From contig JAEULC010000161.1 of the NCBI GenBank assembly GCA_016792605.1, positions 1 to 38,724 of the forward strand: 38,724 nucleotides of DNA. The letters run 5' to 3'. Each line of letters starts with the position of its first letter. Positions within the stretch are counted from its first letter, which is position 1. The position numbers and the translations under genes were made by a program. The DNA is from Rhodospirillales bacterium. GTDB taxonomy: Bacteria > Pseudomonadota > Alphaproteobacteria > JAEULC01. Shown here piece by piece: positions 5,151-18,778 of the stretch. Below the pieces are notes generated by a model that saw only the letters and a program-made list of their open reading frames with translations, searched no databases and was not told where the DNA came from.

Positions 5151-5176
5151 GTTTCTGCGCGTTTTCGACAGGTTTT
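5151..5176 (+). promoter_or_regulatory. Candidate DeoR-type operator (helically phased GTTTT repeats)
   Basis: GTTTC (5151), GTTTT (5161) and GTTTT (5172) recur at 10- and 11-base spacing, that is, on one face of the helix. Short T-rich direct repeats of this kind are typical of DeoR/GlpR-family operators. The third copy overlaps the -35 TTGACA, so bound repressor would block the promoter of its own operon. The assignment is inferred from position and spacing. Confidence 0.4.
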
Positions 5177-5204
5177 GACAAATTCTGGCACCCCTGCCTA
5201 GGAT
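5175..5204 (+). promoter_or_regulatory. Promoter of the DeoR/acid-sugar operon
   Basis: A perfect TTGACA (5175-5180), 18-base spacer and TAGGAT (5199-5204) precede the TTG start of the regulator by about 20 bases. The -35 overlaps the last phased GTTTT repeat. Confidence 0.55.
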
Positions 5205-5224
5205 CGTCCAGGGGAGAGCACCGC

Positions 5225-6052
5225 TTGGCCGCAACCACGAGCGCTGAGGTCGCACCGGCGCGGGACCTGATCCCGGCGCAGCGCCGCGCGCTGATCCTGG
5301 ACCTGATCCGCGACCGCAACGGCGCGTCGATCGCCGAGCTGGCGGAGCATCTCGCCGCGTCGGAATCGACCGTGCGCCGCGACCTCGACTACCTGACCGA
5401 CCAGGGCTACATCGAGCGCAGCCATGGCGGCGCCATGGTCAAGGACGCGCCGCGCACCACCTTCGAGCCGCAATACGAGATCGGCTCGCGCACCCACCAG
5501 GCCGAGAAGGCGGCGATCGGCGCCGCGGCGGCGACGCTTGTCGAGCCGGGGCAGAGCGTGATCTTCGACTCGTCCTCGACCGTGCTCGAGGCGGCCCAGG
5601 CGGTGGCGCGGCGCGGGATCGCGCTGACCGCCGTCACCAACGACCTCAACATCGCCAGCGCGCTGGCGGCCCAGCCGCAGGTCAGGGTCATCGTGCCGGG
5701 CGGCACGCTGCGTCCCGGCTCGTTCTCGCTGGTCGGCGAGCCGGGCATGGACTTCCTCGGCGGACTGCATGTCGACCTGGCGCTCATCGGCATCCAGGCG
5801 CTTTCCGGGCTCAAGCTCGCCGACAGCTCGATCGAGATCGCGGCGATGAAGCGGCGCATGATCGACGCCGCGCGGCAGGTCGTGCTGCTGGCGGATTCCT
5901 CGAAGTTCCAGCAGACCTCGTTCCGCGAGGTCTGCGACATGGGCAAGGTGTCGCGAGTGCTGACCGACGAGCGCCTGCCGGCGCGCGACCGCAAGGCGCT
6001 CGACAAGGTCGGCGTCGCGGTGACGGTCGTGGCGGCGGGCAAGCGGCGATGA
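5225..6052 (+). CDS. DeoR/GlpR family transcriptional regulator
   Basis: 275 residues, the usual family length. Residues about 16-70 form the DeoR winged helix: PAQRRALILDLIRDR, then IAELAEHLAASESTVRRDLD and the wing YIERSHGGAM. The C-terminal DeoR sensor domain (residues about 90-260) has IFDSSSTVLEA, VTNDLNIASAL, VPGGTLRPGS and ADSSKFQQTSF, typical of regulators that sense phosphorylated sugars or acids. The open frame continues far upstream, but no ATG fits; TTG at 5225 is the best start, with an AGGGGAG ribosome site and the promoter just before it. The stop overlaps the kinase start (ATGA). As first gene of the operon it is probably autoregulated, and its likely inducer is a phosphorylated intermediate made by the kinase next door. 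Confidence 0.9.
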   Translation: MAATTSAEVAPARDLIPAQRRALILDLIRDRNGASIAELAEHLAASESTVRRDLDYLTDQGYIERSHGGAMVKDAPRTTFEPQYEIGSRTHQAEKAAIGAAAATLVEPGQSVIFDSSSTVLEAAQAVARRGIALTAVTNDLNIASALAAQPQVRVIVPGGTLRPGSFSLVGEPGMDFLGGLHVDLALIGIQALSGLKLADSSIEIAAMKRRMIDAARQVVLLADSSKFQQTSFREVCDMGKVSRVLTDERLPARDRKALDKVGVAVTVVAAGKRR

Positions 6053-7191
6053 AGACCTCGGTCACGCCCCTGGTGCGCCGTCGCGTGGCGCTGGTCGCCG
6101 ACGACCTTACCGGCGCGCTCGATGCCGCGGCGCCGTTCGCCGACGCCAAGGCACCGGTGGCGGTGCAGCTCGCCGGTGCGCCGCTGCCGGCAGCGCGCGG
6201 CTCGATCGCCATCGACGCGGCCACACGCGGCGGCACGCCGGCGCAGGCGGAAGCCGCGGCGATGCGGGCCGCGCCGTTGCTCAGGATGGCCGATACGGCG
6301 TTCCGCAAGATCGATTCCCTGCTGCGCGGCCACGCCGCCGCCGAGATCGCCGCCACAGCACGGGCCGGGGGCTTTGCCAGCGTGATCGTGGCGCCGGCTT
6401 TCCCCGCCCAGGGACGGATCATGCTGCAGGGCCGGCAATATGCGCGGCACGCCGACGGTGCATGGCGCCTGGTCGACCGCGACCTGATGGCCGAGCTGGG
6501 CGCCTGCGGCCTCGCCCCGCGATCGGCGATCGCGGCCGATCTCGCGGGCGGCGGCGTCTTCGTGTGCGATGCCGAGTTCGACTCGGACCTCGCGGCAATC
6601 GCTGCCGCCCGGTCGCGCCTGAAGCTCCCTGTCCTGTGGTGCGGCACATCAGGCCTGGCGCGGGCATTGGCGCACGACCTGGCGGGGCCGGCCCCGCTGC
6701 CGACCGGGCCGACGCTCGGCGTCATTGGCTCGCCGCATCCTGTCACGGCGGCGGAGATCGCCGCGCTGGAAGCGGCCGATCCTGCAGCCGTCGTCCGCGT
6801 GGCGTCGGCGGATGCGATCGACGGTGCGGTCGCGCAGGCGGCCCATCGCCTGGCGCAGGGCGCTTCGGTGCTGGTGACGCTGGCGCTGGCCCCACAGTCC
6901 GCGGCCGAGGCCCTGGCCGTGCTGCATCGCCTGGCCGCGGGGGCCATTGCGCTGAAGCCGGCGTCGCTGTTCGCCAGCGGCGGCGACACGCTGGCGGCGC
7001 TGGCGCGGGCGGCCGGGGCGGACCATCTCGCCGTGACCGGCGAGGCGATGCCCGGCCTGCCGCTGTCCAGACTTGTCGGCGGCGGCTGGGACGGGCTCGC
7101 CGTGCTCTCCAAGTCGGGCGCCTTCGAGGGCGCCGACATCCTGTTGCAGCTCTTTTCCGGTTCGAAGGAGGCCAAGCGTGCCCGCGCATAG
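6049..7191 (+). CDS. Four-carbon acid sugar kinase family protein (DUF1537, OtnK/DtnK-like)
   Basis: A 380-residue two-domain kinase. The N-terminal substrate domain has VADDLTGALDAAAPF near residues 15-30 and RKIDSLLRGH near 86-95. The C-terminal nucleotide domain has ASGGDTLAALARAAG and GLPLSRLVGGGWDGLAVLSK, both standard for the family. Characterised members phosphorylate D-threonate, L-threonate, D-erythronate or related acids at the 4-position. It is a little shorter than the usual 400-430 residues, with short loops rather than a lost domain. It overlaps the regulator by 4 bases and the PdxA2-like gene by 14. A kinase followed directly by PdxA2 is the known D-threonate/D-erythronate arrangement (phosphorylation, then oxidative decarboxylation to dihydroxyacetone phosphate). 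Exact substrate unproven. Confidence 0.88.
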   Translation: MKTSVTPLVRRRVALVADDLTGALDAAAPFADAKAPVAVQLAGAPLPAARGSIAIDAATRGGTPAQAEAAAMRAAPLLRMADTAFRKIDSLLRGHAAAEIAATARAGGFASVIVAPAFPAQGRIMLQGRQYARHADGAWRLVDRDLMAELGACGLAPRSAIAADLAGGGVFVCDAEFDSDLAAIAAARSRLKLPVLWCGTSGLARALAHDLAGPAPLPTGPTLGVIGSPHPVTAAEIAALEAADPAAVVRVASADAIDGAVAQAAHRLAQGASVLVTLALAPQSAAEALAVLHRLAAGAIALKPASLFASGGDTLAALARAAGADHLAVTGEAMPGLPLSRLVGGGWDGLAVLSKSGAFEGADILLQLFSGSKEAKRARA

Positions 7192-8239
7192 ACCCCGCAT
7201 TGCCTTGACGATGGGCGACCCGGCCGGGGTCGGTCCCGAGCTCTGCCTGAAGGCCACGGCGAAAATGGCATCGCGCGTCAGGGCGCGCGAACTTGACCTA
7301 GTGACGATCGGAACCCAGGCATCGATCGACATGGCGCGCGAGCGATTGATCGCGAAGGGCCAGCGCCGCTATGCGCCTCACATCGACGTGATCGAGGCGA
7401 CGCAGAGCCAGGGCAAGGTGAAGTTCGGCCAGACCAGTGCCGAGGCCGGACGCCAGGCCTTTCGCGCCATCGAGACCGCGATCGGCCTGGCGATGAAGGG
7501 CGAGATCGACGCCATCGCCACCGCGCCGATCAGCAAGGAGGCGATCAATGCCGCCGGCTTCCACTACGCCGGCCACACCGAGATCCTGGCCGACCTGACC
7601 AGGAGCAAGGGCTCGGTGCTGATGCTGGTGCATGACCGGCTGCGCGTCAGCCACGTGTCGGCGCATGTGCCGCTGGCCAAGGCGACCTCGCTGGTGACGC
7701 CGGAGCGGCTGACCTTCGTCATCGACCTGACCTACGACGCGCTGAAGCGCCTGGGCTTCAAGAAGCCCAAGCTCGGCATCGCCGCGGTCAACCCGCATGC
7801 CGGCGAGGGCGGCATGTTCGGGCGCGAGGACATCGACATCGTGACGCCGGTGATCGAGAAGTACCGCGCCCAGGGCATGGACATAACCGGCCCGGTGCCG
7901 GGCGACACGGTGTTCGTGAAGGCGCTGGGCGGGCAGTTCGACGGCGTCGTGGCGATGTTCCACGACCAGGGCCATGTGGCGGTGAAGCTGCTCGGCTTCA
8001 AGATCGACCGCAAGACCGGGAAGTGGGTGGGGCTCAGCGGCGTCAACATCACGCTCGGCCTGCCGATCGTCCGCACCTCGGTCGACCACGGCACGGCGTT
8101 CGACATCGCCGGCAAGGGCATCGCCAATCCGCAGAGCATGATGGAAGCGATCGACCTGGCGATGAAGCTGTCGGCTGCCCGCAAGAAGACCGCCAATCCG
8201 CAGAAGGCCAACACGCATAAGGAAAGAAAGAGCGCATGA
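7178..8239 (+). CDS. pdxA2: PdxA2-like 4-phospho-threonate/erythronate dehydrogenase (decarboxylating)
   Basis: 353 residues of the PdxA family: ALTMGDPAGVGPEL at the N-terminus, metal-binding His residues in AGHTEIL, VSAHVPL and HDQGHVAVK, the NPHAGEGGMFGRED loop and SVDHGTAFDIAGKG near the end. PdxA itself makes pyridoxine precursor from 4-phosphohydroxythreonine; PdxA2 paralogues oxidise and decarboxylate D-threonate 4-phosphate or D-erythronate 4-phosphate with NAD to give dihydroxyacetone phosphate. The DUF1537 kinase upstream argues for PdxA2. GTG at 7178 was chosen because AAGGAGG lies at 7165-7171; the next in-frame start (ATG 7211) would remove the first strand. It overlaps the kinase by 14 bases and the Ldh-family gene by 4 (ATGA). 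Confidence 0.88.
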   Translation: MPAHRPRIALTMGDPAGVGPELCLKATAKMASRVRARELDLVTIGTQASIDMARERLIAKGQRRYAPHIDVIEATQSQGKVKFGQTSAEAGRQAFRAIETAIGLAMKGEIDAIATAPISKEAINAAGFHYAGHTEILADLTRSKGSVLMLVHDRLRVSHVSAHVPLAKATSLVTPERLTFVIDLTYDALKRLGFKKPKLGIAAVNPHAGEGGMFGREDIDIVTPVIEKYRAQGMDITGPVPGDTVFVKALGGQFDGVVAMFHDQGHVAVKLLGFKIDRKTGKWVGLSGVNITLGLPIVRTSVDHGTAFDIAGKGIANPQSMMEAIDLAMKLSAARKKTANPQKANTHKERKSA

Positions 8240-9309
8240 CGACGACCAGGGTTGCCCCGGCCAAGCTCGCGACGACCGTGGCGGGCATCTTTGCCAAGGC
8301 GGGCAGCGACGCGACGGAATCGAAGGCCGTCGCCGACCATCTCGTCGAGGCCAACCTGATGGGCCACGACTCGCACGGTGTGATCCGTGTCGCCAAGTAT
8401 ATCGACTGGCTGAAGCAGGGCATGGTCGTCACCAACCAGCACGCCAAGACGCTGCGCGACGACGGCGTGCTGCTGATGCTCGACGGCCAGTTCGGGTACG
8501 GCCAGGTGATCGGCATCGACGCGATGAAGGCCGGCATCGCCAAGGCGAAGAAGCACGGCGTCGCCCTGGTCGCGCTGCGCAACACCGGGCATCTCGGGCG
8601 CATCGGCGCCTGGGCCGAGATGGCGGCGGCCGAGGGGCTGGTGTCGATGCACTTCGTCAACACCTCGGGCTTCGGCATGCTGGTGGCGCCGCATGGCGGC
8701 AGCGACCGGCGCCTGTCGGCCAACCCGATCGCGGCCGGCGTGCCGGTGAAAGGCGCCCAGCCGATCATCCTCGACATGTCCACCTGCATCATCGCCGAGG
8801 GCAAGATCCAGGTTGCGCGCAACAAGAAGGAGAAGCTGCCGGAAGGCGCCGTGCTCGACGGCAAGGGCAAGCCAACGCGCGAGCCCGACGAGTTCTACGC
8901 CAGCCCGCCCGGCGCCATCCTGCCGATCGCCGGCCACAAGGGCTCGGGCCTGTCGATCATCTGTGAGGTCATGGCCGGCGCGCTCACCGGCGGCGGCTCG
9001 ACGCATCCGGACAACCCGACGGCCAAGCGCCTGGTCAACAACATGCTGTCGATCCTGATCGACGCCGACAACGTGGCGGGCTCCGCGGCCTTCGCGGCGG
9101 ACATCGCGCGGCTGAAGTCCTGGGTCAAGGCGTCGCCGCCGATCAGCGCGGGCGGCGAGGTGCTGGTGCCGGGCGAGGTCGAGCGCAGGGTCCGCGCCGA
9201 GCGCGAGAAGAATGGCGTGCCGCTGGACGACGCGACGCGCGAGCAGATCGCAAAAGCGGCCGTGGATGTCGGCCTGCCCAGGGCGGAGATCGAGGCGGCA
9301 CTGGGCTGA
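8236..9309 (+). CDS. Ldh family oxidoreductase (malate/L-lactate/ureidoglycolate dehydrogenase-like)
   Basis: A 357-residue member of the NAD(P)-dependent Ldh_2 family, unrelated to classical Rossmann lactate dehydrogenases. The catalytic region LMGHDSHGVIRV (residues about 47-58), NTGHLGRIG (about 118), HFVNTSG and the later GHKGSGLSI loop are all present. Family members oxidise 2-hydroxy acids such as malate, sulfolactate, ureidoglycolate or reduce 2,3-diketogulonate. It overlaps the PdxA2-like gene by 4 bases, and the HpaI aldolase starts 27 bases later. In this operon it could make a 2-keto acid that the aldolase then cleaves; the substrate is not decidable from sequence. Confidence 0.88.
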   Translation: MTTTRVAPAKLATTVAGIFAKAGSDATESKAVADHLVEANLMGHDSHGVIRVAKYIDWLKQGMVVTNQHAKTLRDDGVLLMLDGQFGYGQVIGIDAMKAGIAKAKKHGVALVALRNTGHLGRIGAWAEMAAAEGLVSMHFVNTSGFGMLVAPHGGSDRRLSANPIAAGVPVKGAQPIILDMSTCIIAEGKIQVARNKKEKLPEGAVLDGKGKPTREPDEFYASPPGAILPIAGHKGSGLSIICEVMAGALTGGGSTHPDNPTAKRLVNNMLSILIDADNVAGSAAFAADIARLKSWVKASPPISAGGEVLVPGEVERRVRAEREKNGVPLDDATREQIAKAAVDVGLPRAEIEAALG

Positions 9310-9336
9310 AGGAAGAAGACCGGGGGGAAACGTCCG

Positions 9337-10110
9337 ATGATCGATACGGGGCTGCGCGCCAGGCTTTCCAAGGGCGGCACGGTGCTGGGACAGATGGCGT
9401 TCGAGTTCTTCACGCCGGGCCTCAGCCAGATCATGGCCAATGCCGGCTGCGACTTCGTGATCCTGGACACGGAACACGCCGGCGTCGGCATCGACACGAT
9501 CAAGAGCCAGGTCGCCTATGCCCGCGGATCAGGCCTGGCGCCGCTGGTGCGCGTGACCGGCACGCACTACCACCTGATCGCGCCGATGCTGGATGCGGGC
9601 GTGCACGGCATCATGGTGCCGATGGTCGAGACGGCGGAGCAGGCGCGCAAGATCGCGTCCTGGTGCCGCTACCGGCCCGAGGGCGTGCGCGGCCTCGCCT
9701 TCGGCATGCCGCATGACGACTACACCGGCGGCAACCACGTGCCGAAGATGAAGGCGGCGAACCAGCGCACAGTCACGATCGCGCTGATCGAGACCGTGGC
9801 CGGGATCGACAATGTCGACGCGATCATGGCGACGCCGGGCATCGATGTCGGCTGGATGGGCCACTACGACCTGACCAACGCCATGGGCATCGACGGACAG
9901 TTCGATCATCCGCGCTACAAGGCGGCGGTAAAAAAGCTTGTCCAGGCTTGCACCAAGCACAAGAAGGCCGCGGGCTTCCTGTGCGGCGACGTCAAGACGG
10001 GCAGGCAGTACCTGAAGGCCGGATTCCGGATGCTCTGCTACGGCACGGATATCGGCGTGTTCCAGGGCGCGCTGGCCGCGGGGATTTCGGGCTTGAAGGG
10101 GAAAAAATAG
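9337..10110 (+). CDS. HpcH/HpaI-type class II aldolase
   Basis: 257 residues, normal for the HpaI / 2-keto-3-deoxy acid aldolase family. Visible features: catalytic region VILDTEHAGVGIDTI (about 45-59), the Arg of LVRVTG, the metal-ligand Glu in TIALIETVAGIDNVDAI and the loop GWMGHYDLTNAMG, equivalent to the GPNDLS-type loop of HpaI. Such enzymes reversibly cleave 2-keto-4-hydroxy acids to pyruvate and an aldehyde. The ATG has a GGGGGGAAA ribosome site. It follows the Ldh-family gene by 27 bases and precedes the ABC importer genes by 84, so it is probably part of the same transcript. Confidence 0.9.
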   Translation: MIDTGLRARLSKGGTVLGQMAFEFFTPGLSQIMANAGCDFVILDTEHAGVGIDTIKSQVAYARGSGLAPLVRVTGTHYHLIAPMLDAGVHGIMVPMVETAEQARKIASWCRYRPEGVRGLAFGMPHDDYTGGNHVPKMKAANQRTVTIALIETVAGIDNVDAIMATPGIDVGWMGHYDLTNAMGIDGQFDHPRYKAAVKKLVQACTKHKKAAGFLCGDVKTGRQYLKAGFRMLCYGTDIGVFQGALAAGISGLKGKK

Positions 10111-10194
10111 GGTTTCGGCCCGGAGGGCCGGAGCGGTCACCGACCAAAAAGGCGGGGCCGAGGTCAGAACGATAACCAGACGGAGGAAACGACC

Positions 10195-10986
10195 ATGAGA
10201 CTTTCGCATCTGCTGGCGGCCGGCGCCGCCGTGCTGGCCTTGACGCTGGGATCGGGCGCGGCCGACGCCCAGGCGCTCGATCGCATCCTGAAGGACAAGA
10301 AGATCCGCATCACGGCGCAGGTCGACTCGGCGCCGTTCGGCATTCTCGGCAAGGACAACAAGCCGACCGGATCGGAGATCGAGACCGCGCGCCAGCTCGC
10401 CAAGGACCTGGGCGTGGAGCTGGAGCTGATCCAGGTCTCCGGCGCCCAGCGCATCCCGGCGCTGCTGTCGGACCGGGCCGACCTTGCGATCTCCTCGCTG
10501 TCGATCACGTCGGAGCGCGCCAAGTCGGTCTGGTTCTCCAGCCCGCATGGCGCGCTGTCGATCGTGATCGGCGGCCCGAAGAGCGTGAACATCAAGTCGG
10601 CCGCCGACCTCGCCGGCAAGAAGATCGGCATGAGCCGCGCGACCCTGGAAGAGCAGGAAGTGCCGAAGATCGCGCCGCCCGGCACCAACATCGTGTTCTT
10701 CGACGAGCACGCGGCGACGCAGCAGGCGCTCTTGACCGGCCAGGTCGACGCGATCGGCTCGGCCGCCTTCCTGATCAACGACCTGTCGAAGAAGGCCCCG
10801 GACAAGCAGCTCGAGGTCAAGTTCACGGTCGTCACGGCCTATTACGGCATCGCCGTGAAGCCGGGGAACTTCGATCTGCTGCAGTGGGTCAACTCCTGGG
10901 TCTTCGTCAACAAGCACAACGGCGTGCTGGCCAAGATCTACGAGACGCACACCGGCGTGAAGCTGGTCGATCTGCCGGCGATGTAG
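10195..10986 (+). CDS. ABC transporter substrate-binding protein, amino-acid type (SBP_bac_3)
   Basis: 263 residues. A Sec signal peptide covers about residues 1-25 (MRLSHLLAAGAAVLALTLG... ending ADA before QALD). The mature part starts LDRILKDKKIRITAQVDSAPFG and has the family blocks GSEIETARQLAKDLGV, LLSDRADLAISSLSIT and LAGKKIGMSR. This periplasmic receptor belongs to the polar amino acid / His-Gln-opine group, which also binds organic acids and amines. GGAGGAAA precedes the ATG. It is followed by a strong hairpin and then two permease genes. A ligand related to the hydroxy-acids handled by the upstream enzymes is inferred. Confidence 0.92.
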   Translation: MRLSHLLAAGAAVLALTLGSGAADAQALDRILKDKKIRITAQVDSAPFGILGKDNKPTGSEIETARQLAKDLGVELELIQVSGAQRIPALLSDRADLAISSLSITSERAKSVWFSSPHGALSIVIGGPKSVNIKSAADLAGKKIGMSRATLEEQEVPKIAPPGTNIVFFDEHAATQQALLTGQVDAIGSAAFLINDLSKKAPDKQLEVKFTVVTAYYGIAVKPGNFDLLQWVNSWVFVNKHNGVLAKIYETHTGVKLVDLPAM

Positions 10987-10994
10987 GTTCGAAT

Positions 10995-11026
10995 GCGCCC
11001 GATCCTCGTTCGCGAGGGTCGGGCGC
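10995..11026 (+). promoter_or_regulatory. Strong stem-loop (UUCG loop) after the binding-protein gene
   Basis: Two 14-base arms (10995-11008 and 11013-11026) pair with a single G-U wobble and enclose TTCG, the especially stable tetraloop. No T-run follows, so it is not a classic terminator. It lies 8 bases after the binding-protein stop and 23 bases before the permease start. It probably protects the upstream mRNA from 3' decay and lowers permease expression, as known for the malE-malF type of intergenic hairpin. Confidence 0.65.
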
Positions 11027-11048
11027 CCTCCTGTGCCGCGAGTCCTGC

Positions 11049-11717
11049 GTGACCTACGTATTCCAGTTCGGCATCGTCTTCGACCGCTTCCACGAGCTGC
11101 TGCAAGGCGCCTGGCTGACGGTCCAGCTCTCGGCGATCTCGATGGCGCTCGGCCTGTCGCTGGCGATCGTCTGCGCCTTCCTGCGCACGACAGGGCCGCG
11201 CCCGGTGCGCTGGATCGTCGCGGCCTATGTCGAGATGATGCGCAATACGCCGTTCCTGGTGCAGATCTATGTGATCTTCTTCTCGCTGCCGGCGATCGGC
11301 CTGCGGTTCGAGGCGAACCAGGCCGCCGTCGTGGCGATGGTGGTCAACCTTGGCGCCTACGCGACCGAGATTATCCGCGCCGGCATCCAGTCGGTGCCGA
11401 TCGGCCAGATCGAGGCGGGCCGCGCCCTCGGCCTCACCCGCATCCAGGTATACCGCAAGATCGTGCTGTTCCCGGCGGTGAAGGCCGTCTTTCCGGCGCT
11501 CGCCAGCCAGTTCATCCTGCTCCTGCTCGGCTCTTCGGTGGTCTCGGCGATCTCGGCCAAGGAGCTGACGGCGATCGCCAACACGATGCAGTCCACGACG
11601 TTCCGGGCCTTCGAGGTCTATATCGTCGTCACCGTCATGTACCTGGCGATCGCGGTGGCGTTCCGCGGCTTCTTCGCCGCGGTCTACTGGCTCGTCTTCG
11701 TGCGCGGGCGGGCGTGA
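11049..11717 (+). CDS. Amino-acid-type ABC transporter permease
   Basis: 222 residues with about five hydrophobic segments. The HisMQ-family features are LQGAWLTVQLSAISM near the N-terminus, AAYVEMMRNTPFLVQIYVIFF, and the EAA loop YATEIIRAGIQSVPIGQIEAGRALGLTR, where the ATPase subunit would dock. GTG at 11049 was chosen as the start that gives the usual short N-terminus before the first helix; the ribosome site is weak (GCGAG), and a longer frame upstream would run through the hairpin. The second permease starts 5 bases after its stop. No ATP-binding subunit is encoded in this cluster. Confidence 0.88.
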   Translation: MTYVFQFGIVFDRFHELLQGAWLTVQLSAISMALGLSLAIVCAFLRTTGPRPVRWIVAAYVEMMRNTPFLVQIYVIFFSLPAIGLRFEANQAAVVAMVVNLGAYATEIIRAGIQSVPIGQIEAGRALGLTRIQVYRKIVLFPAVKAVFPALASQFILLLLGSSVVSAISAKELTAIANTMQSTTFRAFEVYIVVTVMYLAIAVAFRGFFAAVYWLVFVRGRA

Positions 11718-11721
11718 GGAG

Positions 11722-12387
11722 ATGCGCACTTTCTCCTCCAACGAGTTCATGTTCCTGCTCGGCGCGATGCGCTGGACGGTCGTCCTGTCGCTGATCGCCT
11801 TCGCGCTCGGCGGCGCGCTGGGCGGGCTGATCGCGATCCTGCGCATCTCGTCACTGCTGCCGGTGCGCCTGGTGGCGACGGGCTACATCCAGCTCTTCCA
11901 GGGCACGCCGCTGCTGATGCAGCTCTTTCTCGTCTATTACGGCCTGGGCCTGTTCGGGCTCCGGCTCGACGCCTGGACGGCGGTCGTCATCGCCTATGCC
12001 GCCTATGCCGGCGCGTTCCTGGGCGAGATCTGGCGCGGCTGCATCCAGGCCGTGCCGCGCACCCAGTGGGAGGCCTCGGAGTCCCTGGCGCTCAGCTACC
12101 TGCAGCAACTCCGCTACGTGATCCTGCCCCAGGCCGTGCGTATCGCCATCCCGCCGACCGTGGGATTCCTGGTGCAGCTCGTGAAGGCGACGGCCGTGGC
12201 CTCGATCATCGGCTTCGTCGAGCTGACGCGCGCCGGGCAGCTCATGAGCAACGCCACCTTCCAGCCGATGATCGTCTACCCGGTCGTGGCCGCTCTCTAT
12301 TTCGTCCTGTGCTGGCCCCTGTCGCTATGGGCGCAGCACCTGGAATCCAGGCTACGCGTCGGCGCGGCGATCGGCCGGGCCAAGTAA
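11722..12387 (+). CDS. Amino-acid-type ABC transporter permease (second subunit)
   Basis: 221 residues, paralogous to the preceding permease: MRWTVVLSLIAFALGGALGG, IQLFQGTPLLMQLFLVYYGL and an EAA loop at GEIWRGCIQAVPRTQWEASESL. It should pair with the upstream subunit as a heterodimeric inner-membrane channel for the binding protein at 10195. A GTGAGGAG ribosome site overlaps the previous stop. The EAA loop implies that an ATPase is needed, so one must be supplied from elsewhere in the genome. The dehydrogenase gene starts 19 bases downstream. Confidence 0.9.
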   Translation: MRTFSSNEFMFLLGAMRWTVVLSLIAFALGGALGGLIAILRISSLLPVRLVATGYIQLFQGTPLLMQLFLVYYGLGLFGLRLDAWTAVVIAYAAYAGAFLGEIWRGCIQAVPRTQWEASESLALSYLQQLRYVILPQAVRIAIPPTVGFLVQLVKATAVASIIGFVELTRAGQLMSNATFQPMIVYPVVAALYFVLCWPLSLWAQHLESRLRVGAAIGRAK

Positions 12388-12405
12388 CGAGAGGAACAGC
12401 AGAGC

Positions 12406-13308
12406 ATGTCGAAACCGAAGATCGGCTGGATCGGCGCCGGGCTGATGGGCCACGGCGCGGCCAAGAACATCCTGGAGAAGGGCTATCCGCTCGCGGTCAT
12501 GGGCAACCGCAACCGCCCGCCGATCGACGACCTGGTGAAGCGCGGGGCGAGGGAGGTCAAGACCGCCGCCGAGATGGCGCGAGCGAGCGATATCCTGTTC
12601 ACCTGCGTGCCGTCCTCGGTCGAGGTCGAGGCGCTCGTCTTCGGCCCCGGCGGCATCCTGGAAGGCGCACATCCCGGTCTGATCGTCGTCGACAGCACGA
12701 CCGCCGATCCCAACTCGACGCGCAAGATCGGTGCGGCGCTGAAGGAAAAGGGCGTGCGCATGGCGGACTCGCCGCTCGGACGCTCGCCCAAGGAAGCCGA
12801 GGCGGGGACGCTGTCGACCTATATCGGCGGCGACCCCGATGTCGTCGCGGCGGTCAGGCCGGTGCAGCAATGCTTCGCCGACACGATCGTCGAGGTGGGC
12901 GCGCTCGGTGCCGGCCACACGCTGAAGCTCATCAACAACTTCATGTCGATCGGCAATTGCGCGATCATCGCCGAGGCGGCGACGACGGCGGCCAAGATGG
13001 GCGTCGACATGGCGAAGTTCCACGCCGTGATCTCGGCCGGCGGCGCCAACAGCAAGATGTTCCAGATGGTGGCGCCCTGGCTGCTCGAGGGCGACGACAG
13101 CCACCTGAAGGGCCCGCTGCGCATCGCCGGCAAGGACCTGCGCTTCTACAACAAGCTGGCCGAGCAGGCCCAGGTTGCTTCGTTCATCGGCCAGGCGGTA
13201 AACCAGTGGCTGCAACTGTGCAACGCGCGCGGCCATGGCGAACGCTACCTGCCGGTCCTGCCCGGCATCCTGGCCGAGCTCAACGGCACCAAGATCCGCG
13301 ATCTCTAG
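12406..13308 (+). CDS. NAD(P)-dependent beta-hydroxyacid dehydrogenase (3-hydroxyisobutyrate/L-threonate dehydrogenase-like)
   Basis: 300 residues. The Rossmann motif GWIGAGLMGHGAAKN is at residues 7-21, the substrate-binding region MADSPLGRSPKEAEAGTLS near 125-145 and the catalytic lysine in HTLKLINNFMSIGN near 172. Family members oxidise 3-hydroxyisobutyrate, tartronate semialdehyde, 6-phosphogluconate or L-threonate (LtnD). With a DUF1537 kinase in the same operon, an LtnD-like oxidation of a four-carbon acid is a reasonable guess, but the usual partners OtnI and OtnC are absent here. GAGAGGAA precedes the ATG. The EamA gene follows after 18 bases. Confidence 0.88.
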   Translation: MSKPKIGWIGAGLMGHGAAKNILEKGYPLAVMGNRNRPPIDDLVKRGAREVKTAAEMARASDILFTCVPSSVEVEALVFGPGGILEGAHPGLIVVDSTTADPNSTRKIGAALKEKGVRMADSPLGRSPKEAEAGTLSTYIGGDPDVVAAVRPVQQCFADTIVEVGALGAGHTLKLINNFMSIGNCAIIAEAATTAAKMGVDMAKFHAVISAGGANSKMFQMVAPWLLEGDDSHLKGPLRIAGKDLRFYNKLAEQAQVASFIGQAVNQWLQLCNARGHGERYLPVLPGILAELNGTKIRDL

Positions 13309-13326
13309 CAGCCGAGATCGACGCCG

Positions 13327-14172
13327 ATGAGCGCGACGACGCTCGCCGCGCTGGCGGTGCTGGGCGCGTCGCTGCTCAGCGCGCTCTACAACACGCTCAT
13401 GAAGGTCGGCGAGGACCGGCTCGTCGTCGGCGCCATGGCCGGCGGCGTCGCCGCGTTCCTGGCGGCGCTGGCGATCCCGTTCTTCGCCCCGCCGCCGCCC
13501 GCCGCCTGGCCGTGCCTGGCGATCTCGGTCCTGGCCCAGACCGTCTACTACTTCGTGCTGGTCGAAGCCTACCGCGAGGGCGACCTGTCGCTGGTCTATC
13601 CGGTCATGCGCGGCACGTCGCTGGCGGTGATCGTGTCGGTCTCCGTGCTTGGCGCCGGCGAGACCCTGACCTGGGCGAAAGGAGCGGGGCTGGCGTTCCT
13701 GTTCGCCGGCATGGTCCTGGCGGCAGACCCGGGCGCCTGGCGCCGTCCGGAGACGCGCCGGCCCGCGCTCTATGCGGCGCTGACCGGCGTGTCGGTCGCC
13801 GTCTACCTGCTGGCGGACGGCATCGGGGCTCGGCGGTCGCCGGAGCCGTTCGGCTATGTCGCCTGGATGTTCTTCCTGAGCGGCCTGCCGGTGGTGACGG
13901 TCGTGATGTTCCTGCGCGGCCGCGGCCTGTCGCGCGCCTGGCGGCGGAACTGGCGCCTGGGCTTCGGCAGCGGCGTCGTGATGGCCGCCGGCTATGGCGC
14001 CGTCGTCTGGGCGCTGTCGCTCGGCACCTTCGCGTCGGTGGCGGCGCTGCGCGAACTGACGACCGTGTTCACCGCGCTGATCGCGCGGTTCCACCTCGGC
14101 GAGAGCCCGCCGCCGCGGCGCTGGATCGCGATCGGCCTGATCGTCGCGGGCGCGGTCGTGATCACGGCCTGA
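13327..14172 (+). CDS. EamA/DMT family membrane transporter
   Basis: 281 residues with about ten hydrophobic segments arranged as two EamA repeats (residues about 5-138 and 150-280). The second repeat ends with LRELTTVFTALIARFHLGESPPPRRWIAIGL, split here as the typical ALRELTTVFTALIA helix and a GES..RRW loop that closes EamA domains. These proteins usually export metabolites or amino acids in exchange for protons. It is the last gene of the acid-sugar cluster; a promoter for the next cluster lies directly after its stop. It may vent a pathway intermediate or provide a second route for substrate. Confidence 0.85.
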   Translation: MSATTLAALAVLGASLLSALYNTLMKVGEDRLVVGAMAGGVAAFLAALAIPFFAPPPPAAWPCLAISVLAQTVYYFVLVEAYREGDLSLVYPVMRGTSLAVIVSVSVLGAGETLTWAKGAGLAFLFAGMVLAADPGAWRRPETRRPALYAALTGVSVAVYLLADGIGARRSPEPFGYVAWMFFLSGLPVVTVVMFLRGRGLSRAWRRNWRLGFGSGVVMAAGYGAVVWALSLGTFASVAALRELTTVFTALIARFHLGESPPPRRWIAIGLIVAGAVVITA

Positions 14173-14269: not shown

Positions 14270-15361
14270 ATGAACGACCTGCCGGCGCGCCCGCGGGTTT
14301 TTGCGCCTTTGGGCGAAACGCTGCCGGCGTCGTGGTACGCGGATCCGGGAGTGTTCGTTAAGGAGCGCGCCGCCATCTTCGCGCGGCACTGGCAGCTCTT
14401 TGCCCACGAGAGCCGGCTGCCGGCCCCGGGCGACTACGTTGCCGGCGTCCTGGCGGGCTATCCGATCGTCGTGATCCGCGGCCGCGACGGCCAGGTGCGC
14501 GGCTTCCATAATGTCTGCCGCCACCGCGCCGCCCAGCTCGTGCCGGACGGGGTGGGGCATGCGAAGTCGCTGGTCTGCCCCTATCACGGCTGGTCCTATG
14601 ACGGCGACGGCCGGCTGATCAAGGCGCGCGACTTCGGCGAGGACCCCGGCCTCGACCCGGCGGCGATGGGGTTGTTCGCGCTGCGCACCGAGACCTGGAA
14701 GGGCTTGGTGTTCGTCTGCATCGACCGCAACGCGCCGTCCCTCGTGGACTGGCTGGGCCCGATCGCGGTTATGGCCAGGGACTATCCGCTGGAGAAGTAC
14801 CGCTTCTACCGCGACAAGATCCGCGAGGTCGATGTCGACTGGAAGGCCTATGGCGACAACTATCTTGAGGGCTACCATCTCGAGCTGATGCATCCGGCGC
14901 TGTGCGCCGCGATCGACGTCGACCGGTACACGATCGACGTCCACGACCGGCACGAGTTCTTCCACCTTTACGGGCCGCGCCGCGACGGCGGGCTGACGCA
15001 GGGGCTCTATTTCTACCGCTTTCCGGTCCTGATGCTGAACCTCTACGACTGGGGCGCCTCGATCGCGACTATCGACGCGCTCGGGCCCGGGCGGATGCGC
15101 CATACCAACTGGTACCTGTTCGAGGACCTGTCGCCCGAAGGCAAGGCCGAGCGCGACCGCATCGTCGAGTGGGCGATCGAGATCGTCAGCGAGGACATCG
15201 CGATCGTCACCGGGGTGCAACGAAACCTGAACACGGGTGTCTACGACCGCGGGCGACTGTCGCCCAAGCACGAGCACGGGCTGAAGGGGTTTCACGACAT
15301 GGTCCGGCGCGGCGTCGCCGAGTACGATTCGGGCTGGCGCCCGACCGTGCGGGCGGGGTGA
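14270..15361 (+). CDS. Rieske non-heme iron oxygenase, alpha subunit
   Basis: 363 residues. The N-terminal Rieske domain binds a 2Fe-2S cluster through C83-R-H85 and C103-P-Y-H106. The catalytic domain has GDNYLEGYHLELMH: iron ligands H203 and H208, with D309 in SEDIAIVTG as likely third ligand and D196/N197 at the bridging position. The length and the NYLEGYH form resemble single-component alpha-type oxygenases that demethylate or hydroxylate quaternary amines (choline, glycine betaine, carnitine, stachydrine) rather than the larger ring dioxygenases with beta subunits. No ferredoxin or reductase gene is adjacent, so electrons must come from a partner encoded elsewhere. The following importer genes of the polyamine/quaternary amine type support an amine substrate. 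Its exact identity is unknown. Confidence 0.9.
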   Translation: MNDLPARPRVFAPLGETLPASWYADPGVFVKERAAIFARHWQLFAHESRLPAPGDYVAGVLAGYPIVVIRGRDGQVRGFHNVCRHRAAQLVPDGVGHAKSLVCPYHGWSYDGDGRLIKARDFGEDPGLDPAAMGLFALRTETWKGLVFVCIDRNAPSLVDWLGPIAVMARDYPLEKYRFYRDKIREVDVDWKAYGDNYLEGYHLELMHPALCAAIDVDRYTIDVHDRHEFFHLYGPRRDGGLTQGLYFYRFPVLMLNLYDWGASIATIDALGPGRMRHTNWYLFEDLSPEGKAERDRIVEWAIEIVSEDIAIVTGVQRNLNTGVYDRGRLSPKHEHGLKGFHDMVRRGVAEYDSGWRPTVRAG

Positions 15362-15385
15362 GTCGCCGGGGCATGGGTATTGCAC

Positions 15386-15391
15386 TATAAT
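15386..15391 (+). promoter_or_regulatory. Candidate -10 element (TATAAT) before the binding-protein gene
   Basis: A perfect TATAAT, rare in this GC-rich sequence, lies in the 102-base gap between the oxygenase and the binding-protein gene. No good -35 is found 16-18 bases upstream, so it may be weak or activator-dependent. It would give an extra transcript starting near 15398 for the importer. Confidence 0.35.
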
Positions 15392-15463
15392 TCGAAATAA
15401 ACGCGGGGGCGGGAAGCCCTGCCGCGGGAGGCGTTCGTCAATCTGCAACAGAGGAGACTTGGG

Positions 15464-16606
15464 ATGATCCTGTTCGACAAGAAAACGGTTACGCGCCGCT
15501 CGGTGCTCAAGAAGGCGGTCGCGGCCGGCGCCGTGGCGTCCGTCGGCCCCTGGTTCGTGCGCGACGCGCTGTCGTCCTCGGGCGAACTCAACTGGTTCAC
15601 CTGGGAGGACTATGCGCCGAAGCCCTTGATGGACAAGTTCACCAAGGACACCGGCATCAAGATCAACGTGACCCTGTTCGACTCCAACGAGACCCAGCTC
15701 AACAAGCTGCGCGCCGCGCGCGGCGAGGGCTTCGACATGTGCACGCCCACGGTCACCTGGGTTGGCGCGCATATCGACGCCGGCAACATCCAGCCCGTCG
15801 ACTGGGCCAAGATCAAGACCCTGAACAACGTCCAGAAGACCTTCCAGGGCCTGCCGGCCGACCAGGGCGCCCAGCGCGACGGCAAGTACTACTGCATGCC
15901 GTACAAGTGGGGCACCGAGGCGCTGACCTTCAACACCAAGGCGATGACCCTGGAGTACGGCAAGGCCAGCTTCGGCGACCTGTGGGATCCGAAGTGGAAG
16001 GGCAAGATGACCTGCCGCCCGCGCTCGATCATGCTCGGCACCGGGCTGTGGCTCGAGGGCAAGGGCGATATGCCGGCCGGGTCGATGAAGAAGTCCTACA
16101 CGGACGAGGCGACCATGGTGAAGTACTACGGCCAGGCGCTGGAATACTGCATCAAGAACAAGGCGCAGATTGCCAAGTTCTGGCAGGGCACCAACGACAC
16201 CGTGCTGGCCTATCGCCAGGAAGGCTGCGTCATCGGCCAGACCTGGGACGGCCCGCCCAACACCATGCGCAACGAGGGCGACGCGGTGAAGTACCTGGCG
16301 CCGAAGGAAGGCGCGCTGACCTGGTGCGACACGCTGTCGATCACCAAGGGGGCCAAGAACATCGAGCAGGCCTATGCGTTCATGGCCTGGGCGCTGCAGC
16401 CCGAGGTCGGCGGCCTGATGGCGAACGAGACGGGCTACAACAGCATCGTCATCGGCGCCGAGAAGCACACCAACCCGAACTACCAGCGCAACTTCAGCGA
16501 AGCCTATCCGGGCGACGCGATCGAGAAGCTGTGGTTCCAGGGCGAAGAGAAGCCCTGGTTCATCGCCAAGCGCCAGGAATTCGCCGCCAAGCTCCAGGCG
16601 GCCTGA
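15464..16606 (+). CDS. ABC transporter substrate-binding protein, polyamine/quaternary-amine type, Tat-exported
   Basis: 380 residues. The N-terminus has a twin-arginine signal (TRRSVLKKAVAAGAVASVG, residues about 10-28), so the protein is exported folded. The mature start LNWFTWEDYAPKPLMDKFTKDTG is the usual opening of PotD-like receptors, followed by FDMCTPTVTWVG, YYCMPYKWGTEALTFN, VIGQTWDGPPNT and SITKGAKNIEQAYAFM. Aromatic residues (W, Y, F) are plentiful, which suits a cation-pi cage for amines. GAGGAGA precedes the ATG. A strong terminator-like hairpin follows the stop, separating it from the ATPase gene. Ligand inferred to be the amine oxidised by the upstream oxygenase. Confidence 0.92.
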   Translation: MILFDKKTVTRRSVLKKAVAAGAVASVGPWFVRDALSSSGELNWFTWEDYAPKPLMDKFTKDTGIKINVTLFDSNETQLNKLRAARGEGFDMCTPTVTWVGAHIDAGNIQPVDWAKIKTLNNVQKTFQGLPADQGAQRDGKYYCMPYKWGTEALTFNTKAMTLEYGKASFGDLWDPKWKGKMTCRPRSIMLGTGLWLEGKGDMPAGSMKKSYTDEATMVKYYGQALEYCIKNKAQIAKFWQGTNDTVLAYRQEGCVIGQTWDGPPNTMRNEGDAVKYLAPKEGALTWCDTLSITKGAKNIEQAYAFMAWALQPEVGGLMANETGYNSIVIGAEKHTNPNYQRNFSEAYPGDAIEKLWFQGEEKPWFIAKRQEFAAKLQAA

Positions 16607-16637
16607 TCCCGGCGACCCGCTGAAGGGGTGAAGCGAC

Positions 16638-16673
16638 GGAGCGCCCGCGAAACGGGCGCTCCGCCCTTCTTTT
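16638..16673 (+). terminator. Rho-independent (probably partial) terminator after the binding-protein gene
   Basis: Perfect 10-base arms (16638-16647, 16653-16662) enclose CGAAA and are followed by GCCCTTCTTTT. It would end most transcripts after the binding-protein gene; readthrough or the downstream promoter candidate would supply the ATPase and permeases. Confidence 0.75.
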
Positions 16674-16702
16674 CATCATCGAACCGCCGGCGCGACGGCG
16701 GA

Positions 16703-16724
16703 CCGGAAATTGCCCGGAAATTGC
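16703..16724 (+). repeat. Perfect tandem 11-base repeat upstream of the ATPase gene
   Basis: CCGGAAATTGC occurs twice with no gap (16703-16713, 16714-16724). One helical turn per unit suggests binding of a protein dimer or two protomers on one face. The second unit runs into TTGCAT (16721-16726), which with GATAGG (16743-16748, 16-base spacer) could form a promoter for the ATPase gene. Confidence 0.45.
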
Positions 16725-16781
16725 ATCGCCGGGACATGCATCGATAGGGCAGGGCGACGCCGCTTTGCGGCTGGGGGCGCA

Positions 16782-17897
16782 ATGGCGAATGATCTGGAAC
16801 TAGTCGACGTCGTGAAGAAGTTCGGCGCGTTCACCGCCGTTCACGGCGTCAACGTGGCGATGCCGCAGGGCGAGTTCTTCTCCTTCCTCGGCCCATCGGG
16901 CTGCGGCAAGACAACGATCCTCAGGATGATCTCGGGGTTCATCGACCCCAGCGCCGGCGCGATCCGGCTGGCCGGGCGCGACCTGAACGGCATCGGCCCG
17001 AACAAGCGGCCGACCGCGCTGATCTTCCAGAACCTGGCCCTGTTCCCGCTGATGAGCGTCGCTGACAACATCGGCTACGGCCTGATGGTGCGCGGCGTCG
17101 CGGCGTCGGAGCGGCGCAAGGTCGTCGACCGGATGCTCGAGCTGATCGCGCTCAAGGGCTACGGCGACAAGCGCATCGACGAGCTGTCGGGCGGCCAGAA
17201 GCAGCGCGTGGCGATCGCCCGTGCGCTGGCGGTCGAACCCAAGGTGCTGCTGCTCGACGAGCCGCTTTCCGCGCTCGACCTCAAGCTGCGCCAGCACATG
17301 CGTCACGAGTTGCGTGCGCTGCAGCGGCGCACCGGCGTCACCTTCATCTACATCACCCACGATCAGGGCGAGGCGCTGGCCATGTCCGACCGCGTGGCTG
17401 TCATGAGCCAGGGCCGGATCGAGCAGATCGGCACCTCGACCGAGATCTACAACAACCCGCAGACCGCCTTTGTCGCCGCCTTCGTGGGCGAGAACAACGC
17501 GCTCGCGGGAAAGGTCACCGCCGCCGACTACGGCTACGGGGCGATCGAGACTGCCTTCGGCAAGCTGCGCGCCGCCAATCCGCGCGGCATGAAGCCGGGC
17601 GAGGCGTCGGTGCTGTTCGTCCGGCCCGAGCGCGTGCGCCTGGCCGAGGCCAAGGCCGAGACCGGCAGCGACAACGTCATCGAGAGCCCGGTGCTGGACG
17701 GCGTGTTCGAGGGTCCGGTCGCCAATATCCTGCTGGAGAACCTGGGCAGCGAGCGGCCGATCACCGTGACGCTGGCCAATGACGGCGCCACGCCCCGGGT
17801 CAGCCGCGGCGAGCGCCGGCGGGTCCGCTTCTCGCCCGACGACGCGATCCTGCTGCCGCCGGCCGGCGCCGCGCACGGCGCGGGAGGCCACGCTTGA
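16782..17897 (+). CDS. ABC transporter ATP-binding protein, polyamine type
   Basis: 371 residues. Walker A is GPSGCGKTT (about 38-46), the Q-loop lies in LIFQNLALFP, the signature is LSGGQKQRVAIARAL (about 135) and Walker B is VLLLDEPLSALD, followed by ITHDQGEAL with the switch His. The C-terminal third (about 245-371) is a TOBE-type regulatory domain, as in PotA. The ATG at 16782 gives the usual ANDLELVDVVKKFG start; an earlier in-frame ATG (16710) would run through the tandem repeat and is not favoured. It overlaps the first permease by 4 bases. It energises the permeases at 17894 and 18775; whether it also serves the ATPase-less importer at 11049-12387 is doubtful, because the families differ. 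Confidence 0.93.
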   Translation: MANDLELVDVVKKFGAFTAVHGVNVAMPQGEFFSFLGPSGCGKTTILRMISGFIDPSAGAIRLAGRDLNGIGPNKRPTALIFQNLALFPLMSVADNIGYGLMVRGVAASERRKVVDRMLELIALKGYGDKRIDELSGGQKQRVAIARALAVEPKVLLLDEPLSALDLKLRQHMRHELRALQRRTGVTFIYITHDQGEALAMSDRVAVMSQGRIEQIGTSTEIYNNPQTAFVAAFVGENNALAGKVTAADYGYGAIETAFGKLRAANPRGMKPGEASVLFVRPERVRLAEAKAETGSDNVIESPVLDGVFEGPVANILLENLGSERPITVTLANDGATPRVSRGERRRVRFSPDDAILLPPAGAAHGAGGHA

Positions 17898-18778
17898 GCG
17901 AGGCGATCCGGCGATTCGGCGCGGGCGGGGTCGCGGCGATCCTGGCCGGCGTCGCCTTCTGGGCGATCATGCTGATCGCCGGGCCGATGCTGCTGATGGT
18001 CGACCTGGCGTTCCGGCCCTACCTGCCGAATCCGGCCGACGTCGGCGGCCCGCTGGACGTCCACACCGTCAGCAACTTCGCCAAGGTGTTCCTGGACGAC
18101 CTGAACTGGCGCGTCTTCGTGAAGACGATCTACGCCAGCATCACGGTCACGATCATCTCGCTGCTGATCGGGTATCCGCTGTCCTACATCCTGGTGCGCT
18201 CGACGAAGTCGGGCTGGGTCGGCATCCTGATGATCGGCCTGTTGATCCCGTTCTGGGTCAACGAGATCCTGCGCACCTTCGCCTGGCAGCTGCTGCTGGC
18301 GCGCTACGGCTTCATCAACACCACGCTGACCGCGATGGGCCTGATCGACGAACCGATCCAGTTCACCAATACCGATTTCGGTGTCCAGGTCGGCCTGATT
18401 TACGCCTACATCCTGTTCATGATCTTCCCGCTCTACAGCACGATGGAGAGCCTCGACCCGAACCAGGTCGACGCCGCGCGCGACCTGGGCGCGCCGTTCT
18501 GGCGCATTCACTGGGACATCGTGATCCCGCACACCAAGCCCGGCATCGCGTCGGGCTGCATCGTCACTTTCATGCTGGCCGCGGGCTCCTATGTCGTGCC
18601 CGAGCTGCTGGGCGGCACGCGGGCGATCTGGTTCACCAAGCTGATCTACCTGCAGTTCGAGGCGATCAACTGGAACCTGGCCTCGGCCTATGGCTTCACC
18701 CTTGTGGTGCTATGCCTGCTCTTCATCCTGCTGATGATGGCGGTGTTCCGCGTCAGCCTGAAGGACATCGCGCGATGA
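17894..18778 (+). CDS. ABC transporter permease, PotB-like
   Basis: 294 residues with about six membrane segments. Features are the first helix FWAIMLIAGPMLLMVDLAF, the periplasmic NFAKVFLDDLNWRVF, the INTTLTAMGLIDEPI segment and the EAA loop at LDPNQVDAARDLGAPFWR. The start is TTG at 17894, overlapping the ATPase stop as TTGA, with GGGAGG at 17882-17887; no ATG gives the full first helix. The stop overlaps the next permease (ATGA). It forms one half of the inner-membrane channel. Confidence 0.92.
   Translation: MSEAIRRFGAGGVAAILAGVAFWAIMLIAGPMLLMVDLAFRPYLPNPADVGGPLDVHTVSNFAKVFLDDLNWRVFVKTIYASITVTIISLLIGYPLSYILVRSTKSGWVGILMIGLLIPFWVNEILRTFAWQLLLARYGFINTTLTAMGLIDEPIQFTNTDFGVQVGLIYAYILFMIFPLYSTMESLDPNQVDAARDLGAPFWRIHWDIVIPHTKPGIASGCIVTFMLAAGSYVVPELLGGTRAIWFTKLIYLQFEAINWNLASAYGFTLVVLCLLFILLMMAVFRVSLKDIAR

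Follow-up and report, generated by a model that had tools for sequence, protein, structure and literature searches.

A fused operon of known enzyme families

We examined a 38,724-nucleotide stretch of DNA (the window) from a Rhodospirillales bacterium (contig JAEULC010000161.1 of assembly GCA_016792605.1, which is 4.2 Mb and 79% complete). At 5225..14172 it carries ten genes on the + strand: a real and conserved cluster, in which known enzyme families are joined in one fused catabolic operon. Two modules make it up: (A) a DeoR-family regulator, a DUF1537 kinase and PdxA2; and (B) an Ldh_2-family dehydrogenase, an HpaI aldolase, a binding protein (SBP3), two permeases and a reductase of the beta-hydroxyacid dehydrogenase (HIBADH) family. 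We found no description of this combination, and both the combination and its substrate look undescribed. The ten genes are as follows:

5225..6052, +, DeoR-family regulator (Pfam DeoRC, 6e-44, and HTH_DeoR; 77-81% identity to G001 and G003)
6049..7191, +, DUF1537 four-carbon acid-sugar kinase, 380 aa, short form (Pfam SBD_N, 3e-25, and NBD_C, 6e-12)
7178..8239, +, PdxA2-type 4-phospho-tetronate dehydrogenase, GTG start (Pfam PdxA, 5e-102; nearest solved structures 2hi1 and 6e85)
8236..9309, +, Ldh_2-family 2-hydroxyacid dehydrogenase, YbiC/HcxB type (Pfam Ldh_2, 3e-102; PRK10098 passed)
9337..10110, +, HpcH/HpaI class II pyruvate aldolase (Pfam HpcH_HpaI, 3e-36; nearest solved structure 1dxe, GarL)
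10195..10986, +, SBP_bac_3 periplasmic binding protein (Pfam SBP_bac_3, 2e-26; alignment with HisJ/ArgT)
11049..11717, +, amino-acid-type ATP-binding cassette (ABC) permease 1, GTG start (BPD_transp_1; HEQRo_perm_3TM above cut-off)
11722..12387, +, amino-acid-type ABC permease 2 (BPD_transp_1; HEQRo_perm_3TM above cut-off)
12406..13308, +, HIBADH-family reductase (Pfam NAD_binding_2/11, 6e-36; GR[ST]-P and KL[ILV]NNxxS motifs; tree)
13327..14172, +, EamA-family transporter, possible exporter (EamA, 5e-19; TIGR03340 at 102 bits, under the cut-off of 288)

The genes are tightly packed. The deoR stop at 6052 overlaps the kinase ATG at 6049, the kinase stop at 7191 overlaps the GTG start of pdxA2 at 7178, and the pdxA2 stop at 8239 overlaps the ldh2 ATG at 8236; downstream of ldh2 the gaps are, in gene order, 27, 84, 62, 4, 18 and 18 bp. 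A preliminary description of the locus had placed the same genes in one direction with overlaps or short gaps, and all of them are there, except that deoR is best started at a TTG at 5225, with ggggagag upstream, and not at 5151.

Four genomes of our comparison collection belong to the order of the source organism, and all are of one genus: the window genome, G001, G002 and G003 (G numbers refer to genomes, L numbers to loci). The order from deoR through kinase, pdxA2, ldh2, hpaI, sbp3 and the two permease genes to hibdh is retained in G001 and G003 (protein identity 53-95%), so the cluster is not a chance arrangement; the contigs of both genomes stop within or soon after hibdh, which puts EamA outside their reach. 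G002 retains only kinase-PdxA2-HpaI. The expectation that the neighbors would be conserved together thus held up in the neighborhood comparison, in G001 and G003 and, with a different carrier, at loci L034 and L044 (below).

Within the genus the kinase is the fastest-evolving member of the set, with pairwise nonsynonymous divergence (dN) of 0.37-0.47 versus 0.09-0.12 for PdxA2, and its protein divergence is about four times that of its PdxA2 partner. It is still constrained: the motifs ADDLTGALD, KxDSxLRG and GGxTL are retained and are invariant across five homologues.

EamA is followed, 97 bp on, by a Rieske oxygenase, an SBP_bac_8 protein and a PotA-type ABC set (14270-19674). A Rieske oxygenase and SBP_bac_8 likewise come after HpaI in G002 (L009).

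Module A contains an acid-sugar kinase and PdxA2

Both kinase domains, SBD_N and NBD_C, score above cut-off. The nearest NCBIfam model is D-threonate kinase (NF047819), which the protein does not pass (117.7 bits versus a cut-off of 450). PdxA2 has as its nearest solved structures 2hi1 and 6e85, D-threonate 4-phosphate dehydrogenase, and fails the stricter PRK03371 model (303.5 versus 583). These domains and structural matches bear out the acid-sugar kinase and PdxA2 core that had been proposed for the locus. The D-tetronate kinases DtnK and DenK are summarized in PMC10971088, and work from 2016 on DUF1537 is cited through that paper and PMC10580937. In the Rhizobium tropici group the kinase-PdxA2 pair stands by itself.

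The source genome encodes a second full-length DUF1537 kinase (G000:C324 9204-10460, L194; 418 aa, 266 bits) without catabolic neighbors on its contig. In G184 a relative of this second kinase and a class II aldolase-like gene, OtnC-like by sequence reading, are divergently oriented.

Module B combines three enzymes with an importer that has no ATPase gene in the cluster

The Ldh_2 protein passes the NCBIfam model PRK10098 (YbiC/HcxB) with 387.6 versus a cut-off of 336. Its nearest solved structure is 2g8y and its second-best solved match is L-sulfolactate dehydrogenase; against the sulfolactate dehydrogenase model it scores 206 (cut-off 500). HpaI carries PF03328 and retains the columns aligned with the His, Arg, Glu and Asp of GarL that we take to be catalytic.

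The HIBADH-family reductase had been called LtnD-like, a label we drop: it scores 137 against the LtnD model NF043037 (cut-off 350), its alignment has GR[ST]-P in place of the SGG motif of GarR and LtnD, and in the tree its clade is separate from those of LtnD, GarR and YihU. It also has KL[ILV]NN, as in YihU, in place of KLANQ or KIIHQ, and its GR[ST] and NNxxS motifs align with YihU, an enzyme that reduces a sulfonated aldehyde according to PMC9594981. The YihU model NF012005 is nevertheless not passed (154 versus 348). Since xR[ST]-P is common also in related members of the class with other neighbors, the YihU-like motif is not specific, and GR[ST]-P marks a wide subfamily and not a proven sulfonate enzyme. 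AlphaFold models built from 3-4 closely related rows had a mean pLDDT of 56.7 for the reductase and 30.5 for the binding protein.

The binding protein keeps the SSLSIT...R stretch of the carboxylate side, including its Arg. At the position of HisJ D161, which binds the alpha-amino group of the ligand, all six orthologues aligned with HisJ/ArgT have no Asp, across a local gap. Because the carboxylate Arg is kept and the alpha-amino Asp is lost, the predicted ligand is likely not an amino acid. The preliminary description had also noted that an amino-acid-type ABC importer replaces the usual carrier. The replacement stands, as in L034 and L044 a TRAP-TAXI carrier occupies the place of these genes, with the correction that the cluster encodes no ATPase subunit. 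Neither the cluster genes nor the module B loci that we read included a HisP-type ATPase; the sole ATPase match nearby (33%, at 16788) is part of another ABC set, and five HisP-type ATPases are encoded elsewhere in the genome. The importer must borrow an ATPase from another locus. The same importer genes consistently stand without an ATPase gene, in the window (10195-12387) and in L156, L159 and L161.

Module B stands alone in other families, and both modules meet again outside the genus

A class-wide search with the reductase and the aldolase, after which neighborhoods were read, showed that module B stands alone in other alphaproteobacterial families. G129 has PhyH-HIBADH-Ldh_2-HpaI-SBP3-permease-permease, G124 has HIBADH-Ldh_2-HpaI-SBP3-permease-permease, G351 (another family) has HpaI-SBP3-permease-permease-HIBADH at 76-90% identity to the window, and G059 has SBP3-permease-permease-HIBADH. 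The additional enzymes had been suspected of forming a second branch, and the separate existence of module B supports this. Three of these genomes (G351, G124 and G059), each 94-95% complete, contain no DUF1537 kinase. In the reductase tree the window protein groups with that of G351 within a supported clade, a nesting that suggests exchange of module B. Searches of plasmids with the reductase alone and with the aldolase alone brought up little apart from numerous distantly related family members.

PhyH- or TauD-type oxygenases lie close to module B in L158, L156 and L159. In L156, where module B lacks Ldh_2, an enolase-superfamily (MR/MLE) enzyme (5707-6858) lies upstream of the module; if it is an acid-sugar dehydratase, it could furnish the 2-keto acid there.

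Both modules meet at two loci outside the genus. L034, from a Rhodospirillales metagenome-assembled genome (MAG), has DeoR-kinase-PdxA2-aldehyde dehydrogenase (ALDH)-Ldh_2-HpaI-HIBADH, the last partial, with a divergent TRAP-TAXI carrier. L044, from an Albidovulum MAG, has DeoR, kinase-PdxA2-Ldh_2, a decayed ALDH, TAXI, TRAP and HIBADH. Among close relatives, the PdxA2 proteins of the window, L014-L016, L034 and L044 (six in all) form one side of a branch with 100/98 support. With outgroups, the placement of L034 and L044 becomes unsure (80/51, the join being flagged as long-branch), so we do not claim a single origin of the fused operon. The decayed ALDH of L044 (12081-13113, between ldh2 and the TAXI gene) matches the intact ALDH of L034, and Mesorhizobium ciceri (L098) has a 70% identical ALDH after PdxA.

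Kinase-PdxA2 pairs elsewhere repeatedly occur with pyruvate aldolases

Among the PdxA2-centered neighborhoods that we scored, 76 contain the kinase. A pyruvate aldolase of the DapA type is present in 13 of the 76 and one of the HpaI type in 18, never both. A BNR_2 sialidase-like protein occurs in 19 of the 76, 18 of these with an iron-type alcohol dehydrogenase (Fe-ADH); annotated examples are Azospirillum brasilense and Methylobacterium nodulans. HpaI relatives pair with 2-hydroxyacid dehydrogenases of two folds, Ldh_2 (L034, L157, L158 and L159) or the D-isomer type, recognized by sequence only (L160 and L102), a pairing predicted by C2 oxidation followed by aldol cleavage.

An operon of kinase, PdxA2, BNR_2 sialidase-like protein, Fe-ADH, DapA or HpaI, a short-chain dehydrogenase (SDR) and Bug, ABC or SSS carriers recurs in Azospirillum, Methylobacterium and Burkholderiales/Rhodocyclales (L097, L099, L041, L047-L049, L055, L058, L059, L061, L064-L067 and L069). 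It is possibly a deoxy-ulosonic or deoxy-ulosaric acid route. A literature search for a described operon of a sialidase-like protein and a four-carbon acid sugar kinase found none.

A candidate linear route and its alternatives

Our leading interpretation, which we hold tentatively and at somewhat less than even confidence, is that the two modules form one operon for a linear route running from module B to module A. Module B would import an organic acid, probably of the 3-deoxy sugar acid or diacid class. Ldh_2 would oxidize the C2 hydroxyl of the imported 2-hydroxy acid. From the 2-oxo-4-hydroxy acid so formed, HpaI would release pyruvate and an aldehyde with an anionic group, and the HIBADH-family enzyme would then reduce the aldehyde, giving a hydroxy acid. 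Where that hydroxy acid is a D-tetronate, or where D-tetronate is taken up directly, the kinase and then PdxA2 would yield dihydroxyacetone phosphate (DHAP) and CO2. Several lines of evidence point this way: (i) gene order and overlaps are retained in two other members of the genus; (ii) L034 and L044 likewise combine PdxA2, Ldh_2 and HIBADH, L034 together with HpaI and ALDH; (iii) the PdxA2 proteins of the genus, L034 and L044 make up one side of the 100/98 branch; (iv) HpaI relatives pair with 2-hydroxyacid dehydrogenases of two folds; (v) kinase-PdxA2 elsewhere sits with a DapA- or HpaI-type pyruvate aldolase, and Fe-ADH is present at 18 of the 19 loci with a sialidase-like protein; (vi) the binding protein keeps the carboxylate Arg without the amino-binding Asp of HisJ; and (vii) the reductase motifs resemble those of YihU, a reducer of a sulfonated aldehyde.

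Several observations weigh against the linear route. The strongest is module B without a kinase: given three 94-95% complete kinase-free genomes that carry it, the module B product need not be a tetronate. G002 has no close HIBADH, and L044 has no HpaI. The mutual exclusion of DapA and HpaI is suggestive and not overwhelming, because the swap requires only two changes on the PdxA2 tree. The HpaI of the window and that of the Burkholderiales share only some 33% identity, which makes the parallel between these operons functional and not orthologous.

The main alternative, possible and in our judgment less probable than the linear route, is that one operon serves two parallel routes, with D-tetronate consumed by kinase and PdxA2, and with Ldh_2, HpaI and the reductase degrading a 2-hydroxy acid unrelated to it, such as a 3-deoxy acid of the saccharinic type. 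The acids would co-occur in the environment and share no intermediate. The kinase-free genomes, the solitary kinase-PdxA2 of the Rhizobium tropici group and the nesting of the reductase with that of G351, as if module B had moved independently, all favor such a division. Against it stand the translational overlap of pdxA2 and ldh2, the co-occurrence of the modules in the genus and in L034/L044 despite different transporters, and the fact that other operons time and again join kinase-PdxA2 to pyruvate aldolases and an aldehyde reductase. The earlier suggestion of a longer acid is thus tentatively retained by the linear route, with parallel routes as its nearest competitor.

A more specific form of the linear route takes a C7 3-deoxy-2-ulosaric acid such as 3-deoxy-D-lyxo-2-heptulosaric acid (Dha), a sugar of rhamnogalacturonan-II and green algae, as substrate of the window operon and, by parallel solution, of the sialidase-like operons, whose hosts are plant-associated and freshwater bacteria; we consider this unlikely. 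Such an acid would fit HpaI, since the classic HpaI substrate, 4-hydroxy-2-oxoheptanedioate, is also C7. Aldol cleavage of Dha would give pyruvate and 2,3-dihydroxy-4-oxobutanoate, which on reduction would become D-threonate and then, by kinase and PdxA2, DHAP and CO2. Fischer analysis of Dha (3-deoxy-D-lyxo) gives C5 left and C6 right, which after cleavage, reduction and turning of the chain correspond to right at C3 and left at C2, the configuration of D-threonate. According to PMC12168206, Dha and 3-deoxy-D-manno-octulosonic acid (Kdo) are structurally related to sialic acid, a likeness that would accord with the presence of a sialidase-like protein in the parallel operons. The probability is low for the window because Dha is already a 2-keto acid, so that Ldh_2 would need another role, and because the window has no sialidase-like protein. 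Literature searches turned up no bacterial pathway of Dha catabolism.

An organosulfonate route is improbable. HpaI would act as an aldolase of the 2-keto-3,6-dideoxy-6-sulfogluconate (KDSG) type releasing sulfolactaldehyde, the YihU-like enzyme would form dihydroxypropanesulfonate, Ldh_2 would act on sulfolactate and EamA would export the product. KDSG aldolase is a PF03328 protein and DhpA a YihU homologue (PMC9594981), the GR[ST] and NNxxS motifs are as in YihU, and L-sulfolactate dehydrogenase is the second-best solved match of Ldh_2. Yet we found no sulfogluconate dehydratase, sulfoquinovosidase or desulfonating enzyme in the cluster, both enzymes score far under the YihU and sulfolactate dehydrogenase cut-offs, the reductase clade lies apart from YihU, and kinase and PdxA2 would be left without a role.

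We give even less credence to C2 epimerization, in which HIBADH and Ldh_2, with opposite stereospecificity, would convert a tetronate through its 2-oxo form to the epimer that the kinase can use, with HpaI as a side activity. Each of the five window-type PdxA2 loci with Ldh_2 or HIBADH (the window, L014, L016, L034 and L044) does have both, one of them without HpaI; however, the HIBADH is not of the LtnD type, module B exists without the kinase, and PdxA2 enzymes are generally understood to accept both C2 epimers. Least probable of all is an ordinary D-threonate/D-erythronate locus with unrelated passengers, for although a kinase and PdxA2 are enough for the published D-tetronate route, the order and overlaps of the whole set are conserved and module B is itself a conserved unit.

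The repeated presence of pyruvate aldolases of two unrelated folds beside kinase-PdxA2 suggests that the pair frequently forms the last part of a longer route and not a stand-alone tetronate module. If so, the annotation of many DUF1537/PdxA2 loci would change. The linear route also provides a concrete candidate for the breakdown of deoxy sugar diacids.

Comparison with known systems

The window shares with the D-threonate/D-erythronate modules (DtnK or DenK with PdxA2) a DUF1537 kinase adjoining PdxA2, here with a DeoR regulator. It differs in that its kinase is shorter and far under the DtnK model cut-off, and in that the pair is fused to Ldh_2-HpaI-HIBADH and an ABC importer. With the L-threonate module (LtnD-OtnK-OtnC-OtnI; E. 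coli ygbJKLM) it has in common a DUF1537 kinase and a HIBADH-superfamily dehydrogenase in one cluster. As the preliminary description had it, OtnC and OtnI are absent: Pfam and NCBIfam scans found no such family among the cluster genes at 5225-14172. PdxA2 is present instead, and the HIBADH protein is of another type than LtnD.

The GarL/GarR arm of glucarate/galactarate breakdown likewise combines a class II pyruvate aldolase with a HIBADH-family semialdehyde reductase; the window lacks an aldarate dehydratase and a glycerate kinase, adds Ldh_2, and has a reductase without SGG. Like sulfoglycolysis (KDSG aldolase, YihU/DhpA), the window has an aldolase of PF03328 and a reductase whose motifs are YihU-like, but we found in it no sulfonate-specific partner genes, and kinase and PdxA2 are present. 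The sialidase-like operons have in common with the window a kinase, PdxA2, a pyruvate aldolase and an aldehyde reductase-type enzyme, and differ in the Fe-ADH fold of the reductase, the sialidase-like protein, the Bug, SSS or other ABC carriers and the lack of Ldh_2.

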